Below, in pieces: positions 24,120 through 52,956 of a stretch of DNA of 61,270 nt. How positions within the stretch are numbered: position 1 is the stretch's first letter; each line of letters starts with the position of its first letter. Source of the DNA: Adlercreutzia sp. ZJ304 (GTDB taxonomy: Bacteria > Actinomycetota > Coriobacteriia > Coriobacteriales > Eggerthellaceae). The DNA is taken from NCBI RefSeq assembly GCF_011039075.1, contig NZ_JAAKEG010000013.1:1-61270 (forward strand). Reading direction: 5' to 3'. The position numbers were made by a program, and so were the translations under genes. Below the pieces are notes generated by a model. It searched no databases. It was given only the letters and a program-made list of their open reading frames with translations, and had not been told where the DNA came from.

Positions 24120-24230
24120 TTTGCCATCAGATATGCTTTCTTATATGTGAAAACTGCAATTTGTGTGTTAAACTCTTCAAGTTTGCTTATATGCTTTGGT
24201 CGGAAACCAAGGTGCCCATAAGGAGATGAC

Positions 24231-47339: not shown

Positions 47340-48269
47340 ATGAAACCGTACAAGACAGTAATCTACAGTTTTTTTGTAGGAGGAATGTTTGCGCTTATCG
47401 CTCAGGCTATATTAGCGGTTTGGCAGACAGTGCTTGCTGGCACTCCGATGGAGTTTTTCATAGGTGGCGCCACGCTGGTATCTATGGGTGTAATTGGCTG
47501 CATTTTGGGTGGTCTAGCTTGCTACCAATACGTTGAGGAATGGGCAACATTCGGCGCTTTGTTGCCGTTCTCTGGTTTTGCTATGGCGGTAGGCATGAAA
47601 GCTGTTGGACCGTGGACCACCAACAATGAAAAAGCTGGAAAGTGCGTTATTAACGTTGTTTGGTTTGTACTGTGGTTCAATGTGGTTTTTGCGGCTATAT
47701 GTATAGTCATAGGTTTCTTGTTTGGTATGCTTGGTGTTGAGCCAGCATTTACTATAGAAAAAACTACTGGCGCAATGCTTTTCCCGCTAGCTTTTCTTAT
47801 TGGTGGTGTACTTGCGGCACTGTTCCAAATCCTTTTTGTTGCTTTGAAGTCAATAACACCGAAGGTTACTCCGCTTCATATATTGATGACAGCATGGATG
47901 TGCGGCGCAATATTTGCGCCACTTGGAGTTTCTGGTGCTTTGGCGAATCTCTCTGGGGAAGGTTTCTCCGTAATGATAACCGTTGGCGGTTACAACATGT
48001 ACAATGTTGGATTCGACCTAGCCATGGGTGAAACCGGAACAGCTCTTCTGCATCTTGGTTCATTTGGACTGGCTGTATTCGGTCTTATGATTACCGCGCT
48101 GTTTACATGGATAATTTACAATGCGGTATTCGGACGTAAGCCTATTCATCAAGTTCACATAGATAAAGCACAGGCATCTATAGATGGTCTAACAAAGCAG
48201 GTGCCCGCTTCTGATAATGTTGAGGGTTTCGATTACGAAGTAAATCCGTCTTCAGCCACTAGTGCATAG
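47340..48269 (+). CDS. SpoVA-like (SpoVAC/SpoVAE-type) membrane protein
   Basis: The 309-aa protein has about eight hydrophobic segments. The N-terminus YSFFVGGMFALIAQAIL and the later LLPFSGFAMAVGMKA resemble SpoVAE/SpoVAC, the spore membrane proteins that move dipicolinic acid. The second half (LFPLAFLIGGVLAALFQILF, then LGVSGALANLSGEGFSVMI) repeats the same pattern, as if two SpoVA-like units were fused. Coriobacteriia do not sporulate and no other spore gene is in the window, so the role here is unknown. A small membrane protein gene follows after 8 bases. Confidence 0.65.
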   Translation: MKPYKTVIYSFFVGGMFALIAQAILAVWQTVLAGTPMEFFIGGATLVSMGVIGCILGGLACYQYVEEWATFGALLPFSGFAMAVGMKAVGPWTTNNEKAGKCVINVVWFVLWFNVVFAAICIVIGFLFGMLGVEPAFTIEKTTGAMLFPLAFLIGGVLAALFQILFVALKSITPKVTPLHILMTAWMCGAIFAPLGVSGALANLSGEGFSVMITVGGYNMYNVGFDLAMGETGTALLHLGSFGLAVFGLMITALFTWIIYNAVFGRKPIHQVHIDKAQASIDGLTKQVPASDNVEGFDYEVNPSSATSA

Positions 48270-48596: not shown

Positions 48597-48631
48597 AGAA
48601 GGCATCTGCTGTTAGTGGATGCCTTCTTTTT
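48597..48631 (+). terminator. Intrinsic terminator after the small membrane protein gene
   Basis: GAAGGCATC (48598-48606) pairs with GATGCCTTC (48618-48626), 9 bp, around an 11-base loop, then five T residues. Confidence 0.85.
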
Positions 48632-48672
48632 ATGAATTTATAAATAATATAGAACAAATGTTTTATTTATGA

Positions 48673-48678
48673 TATAGT
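48673..48678 (+). promoter_or_regulatory. -10 box of the structured-leader transcript
   Basis: TATAGT stands directly before the folded leader, with a weak TAGAAC 17 bases upstream as -35. It implies transcription from about 48685. Confidence 0.35.
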
Positions 48679-48693
48679 GAAGAAAATGAGCCA

Positions 48694-48767
48694 GTGCAAG
48701 CGCCTCTTTCAAAAAGAGTGTCCGCGCAGGTACCGTATTTCCCGCGGTACCCATACAACGCTTGCAA
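48694..48767 (+). ncRNA. Structured 5' leader RNA (three-way-junction-like) of a hypothetical gene
   Basis: An outer stem TGCAAGCG (48695-48702) / CGCTTGCA (48759-48766) is perfect over 8 bp. It encloses two hairpins: CTCTTT/AAAGAG (48704-48709, 48713-48718) and GGTACCG/CGGTACC (48729-48735, 48745-48751). A competing helix CCGCG/CGCGG (48722-48726, 48743-48747) would break the second hairpin, so two alternative folds exist. It lies between a promoter-like box and the ATG at 48809. It looks like a cis-regulatory leader; the class is not one I recognise. Confidence 0.5.
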
Positions 48768-48808
48768 GATCCTCGCCGTATAGGGAATTAAAGAGAGTGG
48801 GTGCTACT

Positions 48809-49351
48809 ATGCGTAAAGGCACGCTTTATTTTCCTGCGCAATTTTGCTCTTCTGATTCCATCGTAGAAGAGTCAGATATTAACACTGTTAAACATTTTCT
48901 TTGCATGTCTAATCCTGCAACCATAGCTGATCGCATTCTTTTAGATCGGTTTGATTGGTCGCCCGAGGCGCTGTCTGCTAACGAATCAATTAGGAATGCA
49001 TTTGTGCATAAGATTCGGTCAGCGTTGTCTCTTATGCAGCATATAGAAGAGAGTTCAATTTCAGATTCCTTGCATATCGTAGTTCCTTGGCAATGGCCCA
49101 ATCTATCTGATAAAGAAAAAGAGTCGAATTGTTTTATTGGGGCTGCGCTTGTTAACCTAGAAAATTCTAAGGTCACTGATATATCATCTTTGTCCAGCAT
49201 GTCTTGGACTGACATGCTTAGCTATCGTATGTGGTTGCCAAATAACCTCTCCTGCATTGATTCAGTTGCAGTTATCAGCTATGTCTTTTGGTGTATTACA
49301 CACGATGGATTTGGATCAGATTTGACAGAATTGATACGTGCCGTTATATAG
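48809..49351 (+). CDS. Hypothetical protein behind a structured leader
   Basis: The 180-aa protein reads MRKGTLYFPAQFCSS at the start. It contains an Asp/Ser-rich soluble body with WSPEALSANESIRNAF and HIVVPWQWPNLSDKEK, and a hydrophobic patch near the end (SVAVISYVFWCITHDGF). No recognisable domain. A start at 48677 would place the -10 box and the leader structure inside the coding region, so ATG 48809 (weak GAGTGGG site) is preferred. It stands alone between a terminator and the glutamate synthase genes. Confidence 0.6.
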   Translation: MRKGTLYFPAQFCSSDSIVEESDINTVKHFLCMSNPATIADRILLDRFDWSPEALSANESIRNAFVHKIRSALSLMQHIEESSISDSLHIVVPWQWPNLSDKEKESNCFIGAALVNLENSKVTDISSLSSMSWTDMLSYRMWLPNNLSCIDSVAVISYVFWCITHDGFGSDLTELIRAVI

Positions 49352-49507
49352 CTCCATTTTTACGTTACGAAGCAGGCAAATATTAGGAGCGCTTAACACG
49401 ATAGAAACATGCAGCACATTCATGCGTAACATAGCGATGTTAGCATTTTTCTAATATAGGTACACATGTATACAGATTATTGATCTCCACTTAAAGAGGT
49501 GCAGAAT

Positions 49508-50713
49508 ATGGCGGTTAAACCCATACCTAGAGAAGGTGACGTTAGAATCCCTTCCGGATGTGCGATATCTGCCGTTATGGATAAAAGCGGCAAACGCCAT
49601 GACGGCAGCGACATTCTTAAATCTATTGCGCTGATGCACGATAGAGGCAATGGATTAGGCGGCGGCTTTGCGGCGTATGGAATATACCCTGAATACAAAG
49701 AGCTATACGCATTTCATATTATGTATGAAACTCACGAGTCGCGAATACAGACAGAGGCTTATATTGATAAGTATTTCATGATAGAAAAACAGGAGCGCAT
49801 TCCTACCGAAAGCGTTGCCTCAATAAAGAATCCCCCTGATATTTGGCGGTATTTTGCTGCTCCGCATCCCATGCGGCTCAATATGAGCGGTTTAGATGAA
49901 TCCGAATACACAATGCGCCATGTGGTGCATATTAATTCTTGTATTGATGGGGCATTTGTGGCTTCTTCTGGGAAAAATATGGGAGCTTTTAAGGGTGTGG
50001 GCTATCCGGAAGATATTGGTGAATTCTATAGAATAACCGATTATTCTGGTTGGGCATGGACTGCTCATGGTAGGTTTCCTACCAATACTCCGGGATGGTG
50101 GGGAGGCGCACATCCGTTTACTTTGCTTAACTGGTCTGTAGTTCATAATGGAGAAATTTCAAGCTACGATGCTAACCGAAGATATGTAGAACAATTTGGA
50201 TATCTCTGCGATCTTCAAACAGACACAGAAGTTATAACGTATTTGTTCGATTTGCTTTCAAGAAGACACGGCTTGTCACAGGAGATGGCTGCTCATATTA
50301 TGACGGCTGCATCTTGGGAAGAAATCGACAAGATGAGTCCTGAAGATGCGGAATTTGAAACAGCGCTTCGCATAACGTATGCAAGCGCCCTTGTGAATGG
50401 ACCGTTTTCGGTTATTTTAGGCTCCGAAGAAGGTCTTCTGGCTTTGAACGATCGTCTTAAATTAAGAGCGCTAATGGTTGGAGAAAAGGGGAGCATGGTA
50501 TATATGGCAAGCGAGCAAGCTGCCATAGAAGTGGTTTGCCCTGATGCTCAAAATGTTAGATCTATAGAAGGTGGCGTGCCATTTGTTGTACAACTTGACG
50601 AAGTGGCACAGCGCAAGATGAATGAATCCGCCGAAAACATTGCAAAGGAAACGCCTCTGGCGCACGAAACAGGAGTATTGCCTCCACGTAGAAGGGAGGC
50701 AACACATGCTTGA
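49508..50713 (+). CDS. Glutamate synthase glutaminase (class II amidotransferase) subunit
   Basis: This 401-aa GATase type 2 protein releases ammonia from glutamine. The predicted nucleophile is Cys18 (IPSGCAISAV), so a short leader would be removed to expose it. HGRFPTNTPGWWGGAHPF and NWSVVHNGEISSYDANRRY are the substrate-binding blocks, followed by QTDTEVITYLF. It is the separate-gene form of the GltB N-terminal domain, as in Archaea and some anaerobes. ATG 49508 follows AGAGGTG. Its TGA stop lies inside the next gene. Confidence 0.88.
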   Translation: MAVKPIPREGDVRIPSGCAISAVMDKSGKRHDGSDILKSIALMHDRGNGLGGGFAAYGIYPEYKELYAFHIMYETHESRIQTEAYIDKYFMIEKQERIPTESVASIKNPPDIWRYFAAPHPMRLNMSGLDESEYTMRHVVHINSCIDGAFVASSGKNMGAFKGVGYPEDIGEFYRITDYSGWAWTAHGRFPTNTPGWWGGAHPFTLLNWSVVHNGEISSYDANRRYVEQFGYLCDLQTDTEVITYLFDLLSRRHGLSQEMAAHIMTAASWEEIDKMSPEDAEFETALRITYASALVNGPFSVILGSEEGLLALNDRLKLRALMVGEKGSMVYMASEQAAIEVVCPDAQNVRSIEGGVPFVVQLDEVAQRKMNESAENIAKETPLAHETGVLPPRRREATHA

Positions 50714-52211
50714 TCATAGCCTTCCCAAATACAGGGTATATCGCGATTTGGAAGAGTGTAGCAACTGTGGAGTGTGCATACATTCTTGCTCTAACGGAGT
50801 GCACTATAAAAGCGCCGATGGAGTTGCCATAAAAGCCGATCATAAAAAATGCGTTAATTGTCTAAGATGTGTTGTTATGTGCCCAGAAAATGCTCTTGCT
50901 ATTACTGAGTGGCCTCAAGTAGGTGTTGGGTCTTCTAATTGGACGCTTGGATATATGCAAGACATTGCAAAACAGGCTCAGACGGGGGCGGTGCTTCTAT
51001 CGTCTATGGGTACACCTAATTCGTATCCGGTGTATTGGGATCATCTTCTATTGAATGCAAGCCAAGTAACAAATCCATCCATAGACCCATTGCGAGAACC
51101 TATGGAAACAAGAGTGTTTCTAGGCAGCCGACCAAACATGCTAAAAATTAACGAACGACAACGCAAAGTGGTTTCAAAAATGCCACCGCAACTTAAAATG
51201 AATGTTCCTGTTATGTTTTCTGCAATGAGTTTTGGGTCGGTGTCTCTTAATACCCAAAAAGCGCTAGCTATGGCAGCTCGCGAACTCGGTACTTTTTTCA
51301 ACAGCGGCGAAGGTGGTCTTCATCGCGACTTGGAAGATTATTCTGACAACACAATTGTTCAAGTGGCTTCGGGAAGATTTGGGGTAGATCCTCATTATCT
51401 CAATAATGCGGCTGCTATAGAAATTAAGATTGGGCAAGGGGCAAAGCCCGGCATTGGAGGGCATCTTCCGGGCGAAAAAGTTACAGCTGAGGTGTCTGGT
51501 ACGCGAATGATTCCACAGGGTTCAGATGCAATATCCCCTGCACCTCATCATGATATTTATTCTATTGAAGACTTGCGCCAGCTTATTTTTTCATTGAAAG
51601 AAGCCACTTTATACAAAAAACCAGTATTGGTAAAAATAGCTGCTGTGCATAATGCTGCTGCAATAGCTTCAGGTATGGCTCGGGCTGGAGCTGACATTAT
51701 TGTTATAGATGGTTTTCGAGGCGGAACAGGTGCTGCTCCTAAGCGCATTAGAGACAACGTTGGTATACCAATCGAGTTAGCACTAGCGGCTGTAGACCAG
51801 CGTTTACGAGACGAAAGTATACGCTCTACGGTTAGTCTTGTCGTTTCTGGCTCTATTCGCAGTTCAGCGGACATAGTGCGCGCTATAGCGCTTGGTGCTG
51901 ATGCTGTATCTATTGGTTCTGCAGCTCTTATAGCTGTAGGGTGTCATCAGTGTGGCGATTGCTATCGCGGGCGTTGTAATTGGGGCATTGCTACCCAAGA
52001 TCCGAATTTAACAAGGCGCCTTCATCCAGAATCAGCCGCAAAAAGGATAGTGAATCTTGTTAGAGGCTGGAACAAAGAAATAGAAGAGATGATGGGCGGA
52101 ATGGGGATAAATTCAATCGATAGCCTTCGGGGAAATCGTTATATGTTGCGCGGAGTAGGGCTCAATAAGAAAGAACTCGAGATACTCGGGGTGAAACATG
52201 CTGGAGAATAA
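50706..52211 (+). CDS. gltB: Glutamate synthase FMN-binding subunit with ferredoxin domain
   Basis: The 501-aa protein starts with a 2[4Fe-4S] ferredoxin module (CSNCGVCIHSC and CVNCLRCVVMC, residues 18-65). The FMN barrel of glutamate synthase follows, with SFGSVSLNTQKALAMAA, FNSGEGGLHRD, KIGQGAKPGIGGHLPG and DIIVIDGFRGGTGAAP. It ends in a Cys motif for a 3Fe-4S cluster (CHQCGDCYRGRC). It converts 2-oxoglutarate and ammonia to glutamate, probably using reduced ferredoxin or another low-potential donor. ATG 50706 overlaps the previous gene by 8 bases; the longer frame from 50622 is rejected. Confidence 0.92.
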   Translation: MLDHSLPKYRVYRDLEECSNCGVCIHSCSNGVHYKSADGVAIKADHKKCVNCLRCVVMCPENALAITEWPQVGVGSSNWTLGYMQDIAKQAQTGAVLLSSMGTPNSYPVYWDHLLLNASQVTNPSIDPLREPMETRVFLGSRPNMLKINERQRKVVSKMPPQLKMNVPVMFSAMSFGSVSLNTQKALAMAARELGTFFNSGEGGLHRDLEDYSDNTIVQVASGRFGVDPHYLNNAAAIEIKIGQGAKPGIGGHLPGEKVTAEVSGTRMIPQGSDAISPAPHHDIYSIEDLRQLIFSLKEATLYKKPVLVKIAAVHNAAAIASGMARAGADIIVIDGFRGGTGAAPKRIRDNVGIPIELALAAVDQRLRDESIRSTVSLVVSGSIRSSADIVRAIALGADAVSIGSAALIAVGCHQCGDCYRGRCNWGIATQDPNLTRRLHPESAAKRIVNLVRGWNKEIEEMMGGMGINSIDSLRGNRYMLRGVGLNKKELEILGVKHAGE

Positions 52212-52956
52212 AAAGCACTTTGTTTGCGACAATAATAAGGAAGAGCTAACACTGGGAACGTTGCATTTTCAAGAAGCGAATGAACTTATTCGCCAAAAGC
52301 TTGCCAAATGTAGCAGTCTTATACTGCGCAACGTTTTTGCGCAACGCTATATAGGATGCGCAATGCCCATGGGTAAAAGCATATATGTATTCGGTACGCC
52401 GGGAAATGATATGGCCGCTTATATGGATGGTGGCAGCATAGAAGTTTTTGGAAACGCGCAAGACCAGATAGGTAACACAATGAATGATGGTGTAGTTGTC
52501 ATTCATGGGCGCTGTGGAGATGCAGCGGGTTATGCTATGCGAGGCGGTACCATTTTTATACGCGATGATTGCGGTTGGCGTGTTGGCATTAATATGAAGC
52601 AATATCAAGATAAATGTCCAACTATAGTTATCGGTGGTAATGCTGGGAACTTTCTAGGTGAATACATGGCAGGTGGCATTATTTTGCTTCTGGGCAAAGC
52701 CGGATCTTACTTAGCTACAGGTATGCACGGGGGCGTTATATATCTAAGAAAAAATATTGATTTGTCTGGCATTACAGATGATCTTTCAATTTGTCCCCTA
52801 GATGATAGTGACGAAACAAAAATAACAGGTTTGCTTAACAGCTATTCAGAAAACTTTGGAGACGAATTAGACAAATTTACATTACCCGATATAGAAGAGT
52901 TTGTAAAAATTATTCCCAAGTCAGCTAGACCTTATGCAAATATGTATGCAAATTAA
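52198..52956 (+). CDS. Glutamate synthase GXGXG (beta-helix) subunit
   Basis: The 252-aa protein carries the repeated glycine turns of the GltB alpha-subunit C-terminal domain: GTPGNDMAAYMDGGSIEVFG, DQIGNTMNDGVVVIHG, GDAAGYAMRGGTIFI, GNFLGEYMAGGIILLLG and GSYLATGMHGGVIYL. In fused GltB it is structural and lies between the other two domains. Here it is the third separate gene, overlapping the FMN gene by 14 bases. No gltD-like NAD(P)H subunit follows. Confidence 0.9.
   Translation: MLENKKHFVCDNNKEELTLGTLHFQEANELIRQKLAKCSSLILRNVFAQRYIGCAMPMGKSIYVFGTPGNDMAAYMDGGSIEVFGNAQDQIGNTMNDGVVVIHGRCGDAAGYAMRGGTIFIRDDCGWRVGINMKQYQDKCPTIVIGGNAGNFLGEYMAGGIILLLGKAGSYLATGMHGGVIYLRKNIDLSGITDDLSICPLDDSDETKITGLLNSYSENFGDELDKFTLPDIEEFVKIIPKSARPYANMYAN

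Follow-up and report, generated by a model that had tools for sequence, protein, structure and literature searches.

A conserved leader RNA of Eggerthellaceae, predicted to gate the translation of toxin- and defence-type genes beneath LexA

The locus and its fold

The window, that is, the whole stretch of 61,270 nucleotides of Adlercreutzia sp. ZJ304 DNA that was analysed, carries a structured RNA between an SOS-type promoter and a gene, all on the forward strand. Upstream of them lie the coding region of a SpoVAC/SpoVAEB-like membrane protein (47340-48269), in a lineage from which sporulation is generally not known, and a hairpin followed by a T run (48598-48631), likely an intrinsic terminator, which would insulate the promoter from the upstream gene. 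The promoter includes a LexA/SOS-like operator, GAACAAATGTTT (48652-48663), which agrees with seven of the eight consensus positions of GAAC-N4-GTTC, and a -10 element, TATAGT (48673-48678), recognised from its sequence and from the -10-like hexamer of its relatives. On the other side, the RNA is followed by a ribosome-binding region inferred from sequence, GAGAGUGGGUG (48793-48803), and by the target gene (48809-49351), which starts with the ATG at 48809 and encodes a protein of 180 aa that aligns to the DUF6557-like family with a shortened C-terminus. The sequence-only reading of this DNA had placed the RNA between a promoter-like box and an unrecognised gene, and so it is, as the frame has no confident match in Pfam, NCBIfam or PADLOC. 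Further downstream come split glutamate synthase genes (49499-52956); since the first of them has a relative 3' of the RNA in three other loci as well (L098, L117 and L165), the neighbourhood is partly conserved.

The fold is composed of four helices and a pseudoknot. P0 pairs GAG (48688-48690) with the CUC (48772-48774) inside the conserved AAGAUCCUC, as assigned by covariance-model alignment, and encloses P1, in which UGCAAGCG (48695-48702) pairs with CGCUUGCA (48759-48766), as supported by the fold and by covariation. Within P1 stand two hairpins: P2 (48703-48720), with CUCUUU (48704-48709) paired to AAAGAG (48713-48718) and an additional C48703-G48720 pair, and P3 (48729-48751), with strands 48729-48736 and 48744-48751 and the loop AUUUCCC (48737-48743). 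The UUCCC of this loop (48739-48743) covaries with a downstream strand, GGGAA (48783-48787), located 5' of the ribosome-binding region. The perfect 8-bp stem enclosing two hairpins, which had been described from the letters alone, is borne out by the stability of the segment 48686-48775, whose minimum free energy of -30.3 kcal/mol compares with -18.15 (sd 3.07) for dinucleotide shuffles (z -3.96; none of 200 as stable). P0, the covarying pseudoknot and the LexA-like box are additions to that description, which foresaw neither the SOS link nor the toxin-antitoxin targets. A longer stretch with about 50 bases more on each side (48640-48830), which favours a different pairing when folded alone, loses the excess of stability (z -0.83; 36 of 200 shuffles as stable), and therefore the case for the RNA rests on comparison, not on folding energy.

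Homologues, covariation and the pseudoknot

Homologues were sought by blastn with 121 bases in 138 Eggerthellaceae genomes at E <= 0.1, a threshold that includes chance matches; 52 of the 138 gave matches, many of which consist of two short pieces at the ends of P1, and some of which are due to chance. An alignment (A1) of 28 of 30 loci, from which a chance match (L033) and a locus nearly the same as L021 (L032) were left out, served to build a first covariance model with P0, P1, P2 and P3 set by hand. This model gave 116 matches in 50 of the 138 genomes, up to nine per genome and scattered over the contigs, and matches in 44 of 396 genomes of the class, so that the covariance search proposed in the sequence-only reading did return homologues. 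The working set of 114 copies comprises 113 of the 116 family matches, the three weakest (G035:C3, G157:C3 and G031:C7) being left out, together with G382 from the class search. A second model, made from 101 matches in 100 of the 114 loci and leaving out L121 (whose RNA is also in L115) and L176-L188 (the 12 weakest and G382), detected the RNA in 54 of 395 genomes of the order, 50 of them Eggerthellaceae and four in two other families, and in eight of 396 genomes of a phylum sample, every one Eggerthellaceae. The exact two-sided P1 pattern occurs in 25 stretches of titled genomes, whose titles include Gordonibacter, Eggerthella, Paraeggerthella, Adlercreutzia, Enterorhabdus, Senegalimassilia, Raoultibacter, Rubneribacter and Enteroscipio, genera which we take to belong to the Eggerthellaceae; the other titles are uncultured Eggerthellaceae, Eggerthellales or Coriobacteriaceae and one plain uncultured bacterium.

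The genome of the window contains a second, weaker-scoring copy (L176, G000:C25:98989-99121), followed by a gene with a ParE match below the cut-off, and in one genome two copies stand about 900 bases apart (L115 and L121, G005:C1:933664-934706), one before DinD and the other before HicA/HicB.

Neither the copy in the window nor the RNA of 20 further loci reaches the gathering score of any of the 4227 models in Rfam release 15. At E values up to 5, the window yields six low-scoring unrelated matches, none within the RNA on its strand, and such relaxed searches, with three copies in all, returned only low-scoring unrelated matches. A glutamine riboswitch (glnA or Downstream-peptide), which the glutamate synthase genes behind the target gene had suggested, was rejected, as it is absent from the six. 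Known RNAs do occur nearby, namely the L31-Coriobacteria ribosomal protein leader (Rfam RF03128) at 24193-24225 of the window and a SAM riboswitch (RF00162) elsewhere in locus L111 (15-108). The former resembles the RNA described here in being a leader restricted to a lineage, within the same class of bacteria; unlike it and the other leaders of Rfam, the present RNA has no gathering-score match there. The open-access literature, searched by titles and abstract starts and with most subscription journals outside the scope, gave no description of such an RNA. On comparative grounds, this is a real family of leader RNAs, unrecorded in Rfam and in the open-access literature searched.

The fold is supported by covariation. 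Among 100 distinct sequences, aligned by fitting to the covariance model and hence biased towards the structure, 92.1% of the cells are paired, while shuffling leaves 79.1% and sliding the partners no more than 49.3%, and the covariation score is 0.424 against 0.189, a value that none of 500 shuffles reaches. Double changes occur at 20 of the 24 pairs in this set, a count inflated by the relatedness of the copies, which the slid controls retain, and all three main helices covary. In P1 (98.8% of cells paired), six of the eight pairs are double-changed, and next to the UGCAAGCG/CGCUUGCA of the window stand versions such as UGCGGACG/CGUCCGCA and UGCGAACG/CGUUCGCA, with double changes, and the further coherent versions UGCAAACG/CGUUUGCA and UGUGGGUG/CAUCCACA, in a list that has a few rows out of register. 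P2 varies in length (79.6% of cells paired) and has changes on both sides at six of six pairs, as does P3 (91.9%) at seven of its seven modelled pairs. P0 is near-invariant (99.3% of cells paired) and so yields little covariation evidence, its support being weaker than that of the other helices. Near-invariant letters are the GA and CC of the 5' end, a UGC, the junction CC and an A before P1, and GCA, a G and UCCUC at the 3' end; the junction sequences vary between target classes. In six loci (L133, L143, L154, L164, L166 and L169) a small extra hairpin sits between P1 and P0, with the CUC of P0 retained.

The pseudoknot, in which the P3 loop pairs with a segment 3' of AAGAUCCUC, takes the forms GUUCC/GGAAC, CUCCG/CGGAG, GCCCU/AGGGC, GCUCC/GGAGC and UCCCG/CGGGA. 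In the 106 of the 114 copies that could be parsed by pattern, the longest match averages 5.25 bp, compared to 4.41 bp after swapping the partners between copies, with a highest value of 4.67 over 200 permutations, and in 75 of the 106 it falls in the same register, 6-10 nt beyond the CCUC. The same parsed copies decide about the mutually exclusive helices that the sequence-only reading had attached to its three-way junction: the junction itself is supported by covariation, and the competing CCGCG (48722-48726)/CGCGG (48743-48747) helix has both strands in one copy of 106, that of the window. This helix excepted, what had been observed in the letters holds and is in that sense partly confirmed, and its interpretation as a structured regulatory leader RNA is partly supported, given the many homologues, the compensatory changes in relatives, the position between promoter and start codon and the lack of an Rfam match in the loci searched. 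Neither of the two observations that, according to that reading, would have spoken against it was made: relatives do have compensatory base changes, and translation through the region is not conserved. Pairing of the CCUC of P0 with the Shine-Dalgarno region is often possible, but its covariation is no stronger than in permuted copies (5.72 vs 5.64, 93 copies), and for this reason a CCUC switch is not claimed.

Promoters, LexA boxes and target genes

With regard to its place in the message, 104 of 111 copies have their best -10-like hexamer ending 9-16 nt 5' of the conserved GAG, and TATAAT is matched at five or more of six positions in 93 of the 111, against about 24% of shuffles. Start codons, chosen by a script rather than taken from annotation, lie at a median of 38 nt from the conserved AAGAUCC (94 copies), and in 19 of the 94 they are at least 80 nt away, too far for direct masking of the ribosome site to apply to every copy. 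A reading frame of a seed class, the seed classes being picked from the same 114 loci, is found on the same strand within 900 nt 3' of the RNA in 111 of the 114. Comparison of the copies puts the RNA at the 5' end of the message, of which it is probably the first part to be transcribed, reaching close to the start codon. An attenuator based on an intrinsic terminator was rejected, as a T5 run is present in two of 94 leaders; the rarity of such runs, the nearness of the start codon and the -10 box just 5' argue for translation rather than intrinsic termination.

A GAAC-N4-GTTC box matched at seven or more of eight positions (six alone being not significant) stands 5' of the RNA in 65 of the 114 copies, and 59 of these 65 boxes start 30-41 nt before the start of the RNA model. 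In random windows taken from the same loci the count at this threshold is 138 of 6342, in AT-rich windows it is 144 of 3555, and 2.2% of shuffles reach it as well. The boxes are distributed by target class, with none in the 32 DUF559-like copies and 65 in the 82 others (17 of which lack one), and motif matching thus places a LexA box in the promoter of most copies outside the DUF559-like class. As the DUF559-like copies carry the RNA without the box, the RNA is not a mere passenger of SOS promoters. The motif is also found at lexA and recA: the lexA promoter in the genome of the window has two perfect (8/8) boxes, and the recA promoters of six genomes have 7/8 (three) or 6/8 (three) matches within similar 16-mers of the ACAAACATATGTTCGT type. 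The perfect motif has 13 sites in this 2.0-Mb genome vs 48 for the reversed control, and its other sites there do not clearly mark SOS genes.

The genes behind the RNA were sorted into classes with blastp, the seed proteins being drawn from the same 114 loci. These classes are DUF559-like (32), DUF6557-like (20), a small ORF followed by a DUF6557-like gene (13), a small ORF only (3), YhcG (7), DinD (7), BrnT-like (5), an antitoxin-like/ParE-like pair (5), KilA-N (4), VapD-like (4), Rpn (4), DUF4160 (3), HicA (2), RelE/HigB (2) and other (3). Classes related, some of them weakly, to known toxin-antitoxin or candidate defence genes thus make up 43 of the 114 copies, and the DUF559-like, DUF6557-like and small-ORF classes, of unknown function, account for 68 (65 without the small ORF alone); the DUF6557-like family lies behind the RNA in 33 of the 114 loci, that of the window included. 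Profile HMM scans, made on class representatives only, exceed curated cut-offs for Bro-N, YhcG, KilA-N, Cas2 (in the VapD-like protein), HicA, HicB, BrnT (in L087), BrnA, DUF4160, DUF2442, PDDEXK_2, DinD, Rpn and the upstrm_HI1419 RelE/ParE toxin, and in L186 for the HI1420-type antitoxin, Gp49/HigB and HTH. Pfam DUF6557 passes its cut-off in L094, falls below it in L077 and L160, and does not pass it in the window protein; below cut-offs are also DUF559, a second BrnT-like group, ParE, and the NCBIfam models VapD and DhiT, and the small ORF and antitoxin-like/ParE-like pair of L127 have no profile HMM match. With PADLOC, the YhcG, DinD and KilA-N proteins match the candidate defence models PDC-S02, PDC-S13 and PDC-S22, and the other seven proteins scanned, including that of the window, have no match. 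The predicted fold of a DUF6557-like representative (pLDDT 78.8) has no Foldseek match at E <= 0.001 in the PDB or among viral structures, where an uncharacterised Edafosvirus protein comes closest (2.2e-3), and VIA-align gave no Z >= 5 among 533 chains aligned.

Eight further loci were found only by the second model and were fetched after the target pattern had already been seen. All eight precede toxin-antitoxin or nuclease genes, namely an Rpn-type nuclease, a fused HicA-HicB, YhcG, four HigB/HigA pairs and one MazE/MazF pair, the latter a class new among the targets, with MazF above the cut-off and MazE below; since the proteins of two of the four HigB/HigA loci (G064 and G111) are 97-100% identical to those of L186, these eight count as about six independent loci. 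A LexA box at seven or more of eight positions is present in six of the eight. As matches to the RNA model, most of the eight loci score weakly, with E values from 7e-13 to 4e-5. At the HigB/HigA loci L186, L284, L285, L287 and L288 the RNA is divergent and has a low score, and the HigB/HigA loci have a second promoter-like palindrome, of the ATATAACAATTTTGTTATAT type, between RNA and toxin.

Comparison of gene places with RNA matches shows the RNA at seven of 70 YhcG matches and at seven of 12 DinD genes of the family. The 63 YhcG matches and five DinD genes that lack it count against the reading favoured below, and show that genes of these kinds also occur without the leader. Judging by its distribution, the leader would behave as an add-on control that serves some of the toxin and defence genes.

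Mechanism and competing readings

From these observations, we consider it likely that the RNA is a new cis-acting leader of the Eggerthellaceae, which is predicted to act as a gate on the translation of toxin- and defence-type genes beneath LexA. According to the -10 box, transcription would start a few bases 5' of the RNA. The covariation supports a three-way junction of P1, P2 and P3, closed by the short P0 and locked by the pseudoknot, which joins the P3 loop to a segment 5' of the ribosome-binding site. DNA damage would lead to production of the message via the LexA box, and the RNA would provide a second lock or gate, governing translation initiation of the first gene, in many copies a toxin, an antitoxin or a defence-type nuclease. 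Most likely, the state of P0 and the pseudoknot would decide ribosome access in response to one shared signal, which could come from a small molecule, from a protein or from the ribosome.

Whether this signal is a ligand is a narrower matter. A ligand-gated RNA placed before about a dozen unrelated toxin-antitoxin and defence modules, stacking a single signal on the LexA response, is conceivable, and we put it forward tentatively; if true, this would be an RNA regulon defined by toxicity and not by metabolism. Orphan riboswitch candidates are 5' leader motifs obtained from comparative genomics. The present RNA resembles them in its conserved junction, its near-invariant unpaired letters and its location at the mRNA 5' end, and differs in its targets, many of which are toxin-antitoxin and defence-type genes rather than members of a single metabolic pathway.

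Alternatively, the leader could be a ligand-independent 5' structure, either keeping the mRNA in a standby state, as the tisB pseudoknot does for binding of the ribosome and S1, or shielding its 5' end from nucleases, with LexA as the sole regulation. In tisB, the closest system described, a pseudoknot at the 5' end of this SOS-induced toxin message is needed for standby binding of 30S and S1 (PMC7708055). The arrangement described there, a DNA-damage toxin message of Escherichia coli whose structured 5' end with a pseudoknot controls translation (PMC7708055), resembles the combination found here of a pseudoknot near the 5' end with SOS-type promoters, translation control being in our case predicted. 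That the RNA begins at about the transcript start also fits a ligand-independent structure. However, the near-invariant unpaired CC by P0, the AAGAUCC, the junction CC and the A before P1 exceed what a stability element would need, and the same RNA precedes 32 DUF559-like genes that lack a LexA box, which makes this alternative somewhat unlikely. The leader also differs from that of tisB in its three-way junction, in its occurrence in other bacteria and in having one fold common to many unrelated gene families.

Another explanation is that a single partner, either a protein or a trans-acting small RNA, would bind the leader and repress all the messages together. One conserved fold before many unrelated genes would fit such a partner, but the variation of the junction sequences between target classes disfavours a single antisense RNA, and we regard this explanation as unlikely. 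Far less probable is a DNA-level cassette or recombination site, equipped with a promoter, that inserts before genes: scattered copies before unrelated genes and the existence of same-family genes without the element would agree with it, yet the compensatory changes fit RNA pairing, the pseudoknot included, the start codon lies at a short, typical distance 3' of the element, and no match was found in phages and plasmids (searched with one representative copy) or in IMG/VR (searched with one exact two-sided P1 pattern). These searches and the scatter of the copies over the contigs also bear on an integron attC or other mobile DNA site, for which tandem cassette arrays or a place on mobile elements would be typical. 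Finally, a chance fold in a coding region 5' of the annotated start is scarcely credible, for although the window copy has a frame open from the GTG at 48677 through the RNA, the distances from RNA to start codon in 89 homologues spread over the three frame classes (29, 25 and 35) and the frame is open in 46 of the 89, so that there is no conserved coding region, as the sequence-only reading had suspected, and the covariation is strong.

The favoured reading, a gate on translation beneath LexA, bears on how toxins are controlled, the usual view being that each toxin-antitoxin module is regulated individually by its own antitoxin. A common leader before some copies of DinD, YhcG, HicAB, BrnTA, HigBA and MazEF would mean joint post-transcriptional control, extending to VapD-like, DUF4160/DUF2442 and other genes, with LexA as the first gate, and the leader may be a shared safety catch on genes able to harm the cell. 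In Escherichia coli, the LexA regulon includes tisB, symE, dinJ-yafQ and dinD, and the LexA boxes before toxin-antitoxin or dinD genes are alike in both cases; to our knowledge, no common structured leader unites the Escherichia coli LexA toxin targets. While structured cis-regulatory leaders are a known kind, the fold and its LexA-coupled set of toxin and defence targets are new to us. A toxin-releasing signal in gut bacteria such as Gordonibacter and Eggerthella would become testable, and the sharing of one leader by DUF6557-like proteins, DUF559-like proteins and known toxins offers a functional lead. As a minor observation, L080 and 12 other loci have a small ORF of about 80-100 aa (EALVVI...PLC) between the RNA and the DUF6557-like gene.
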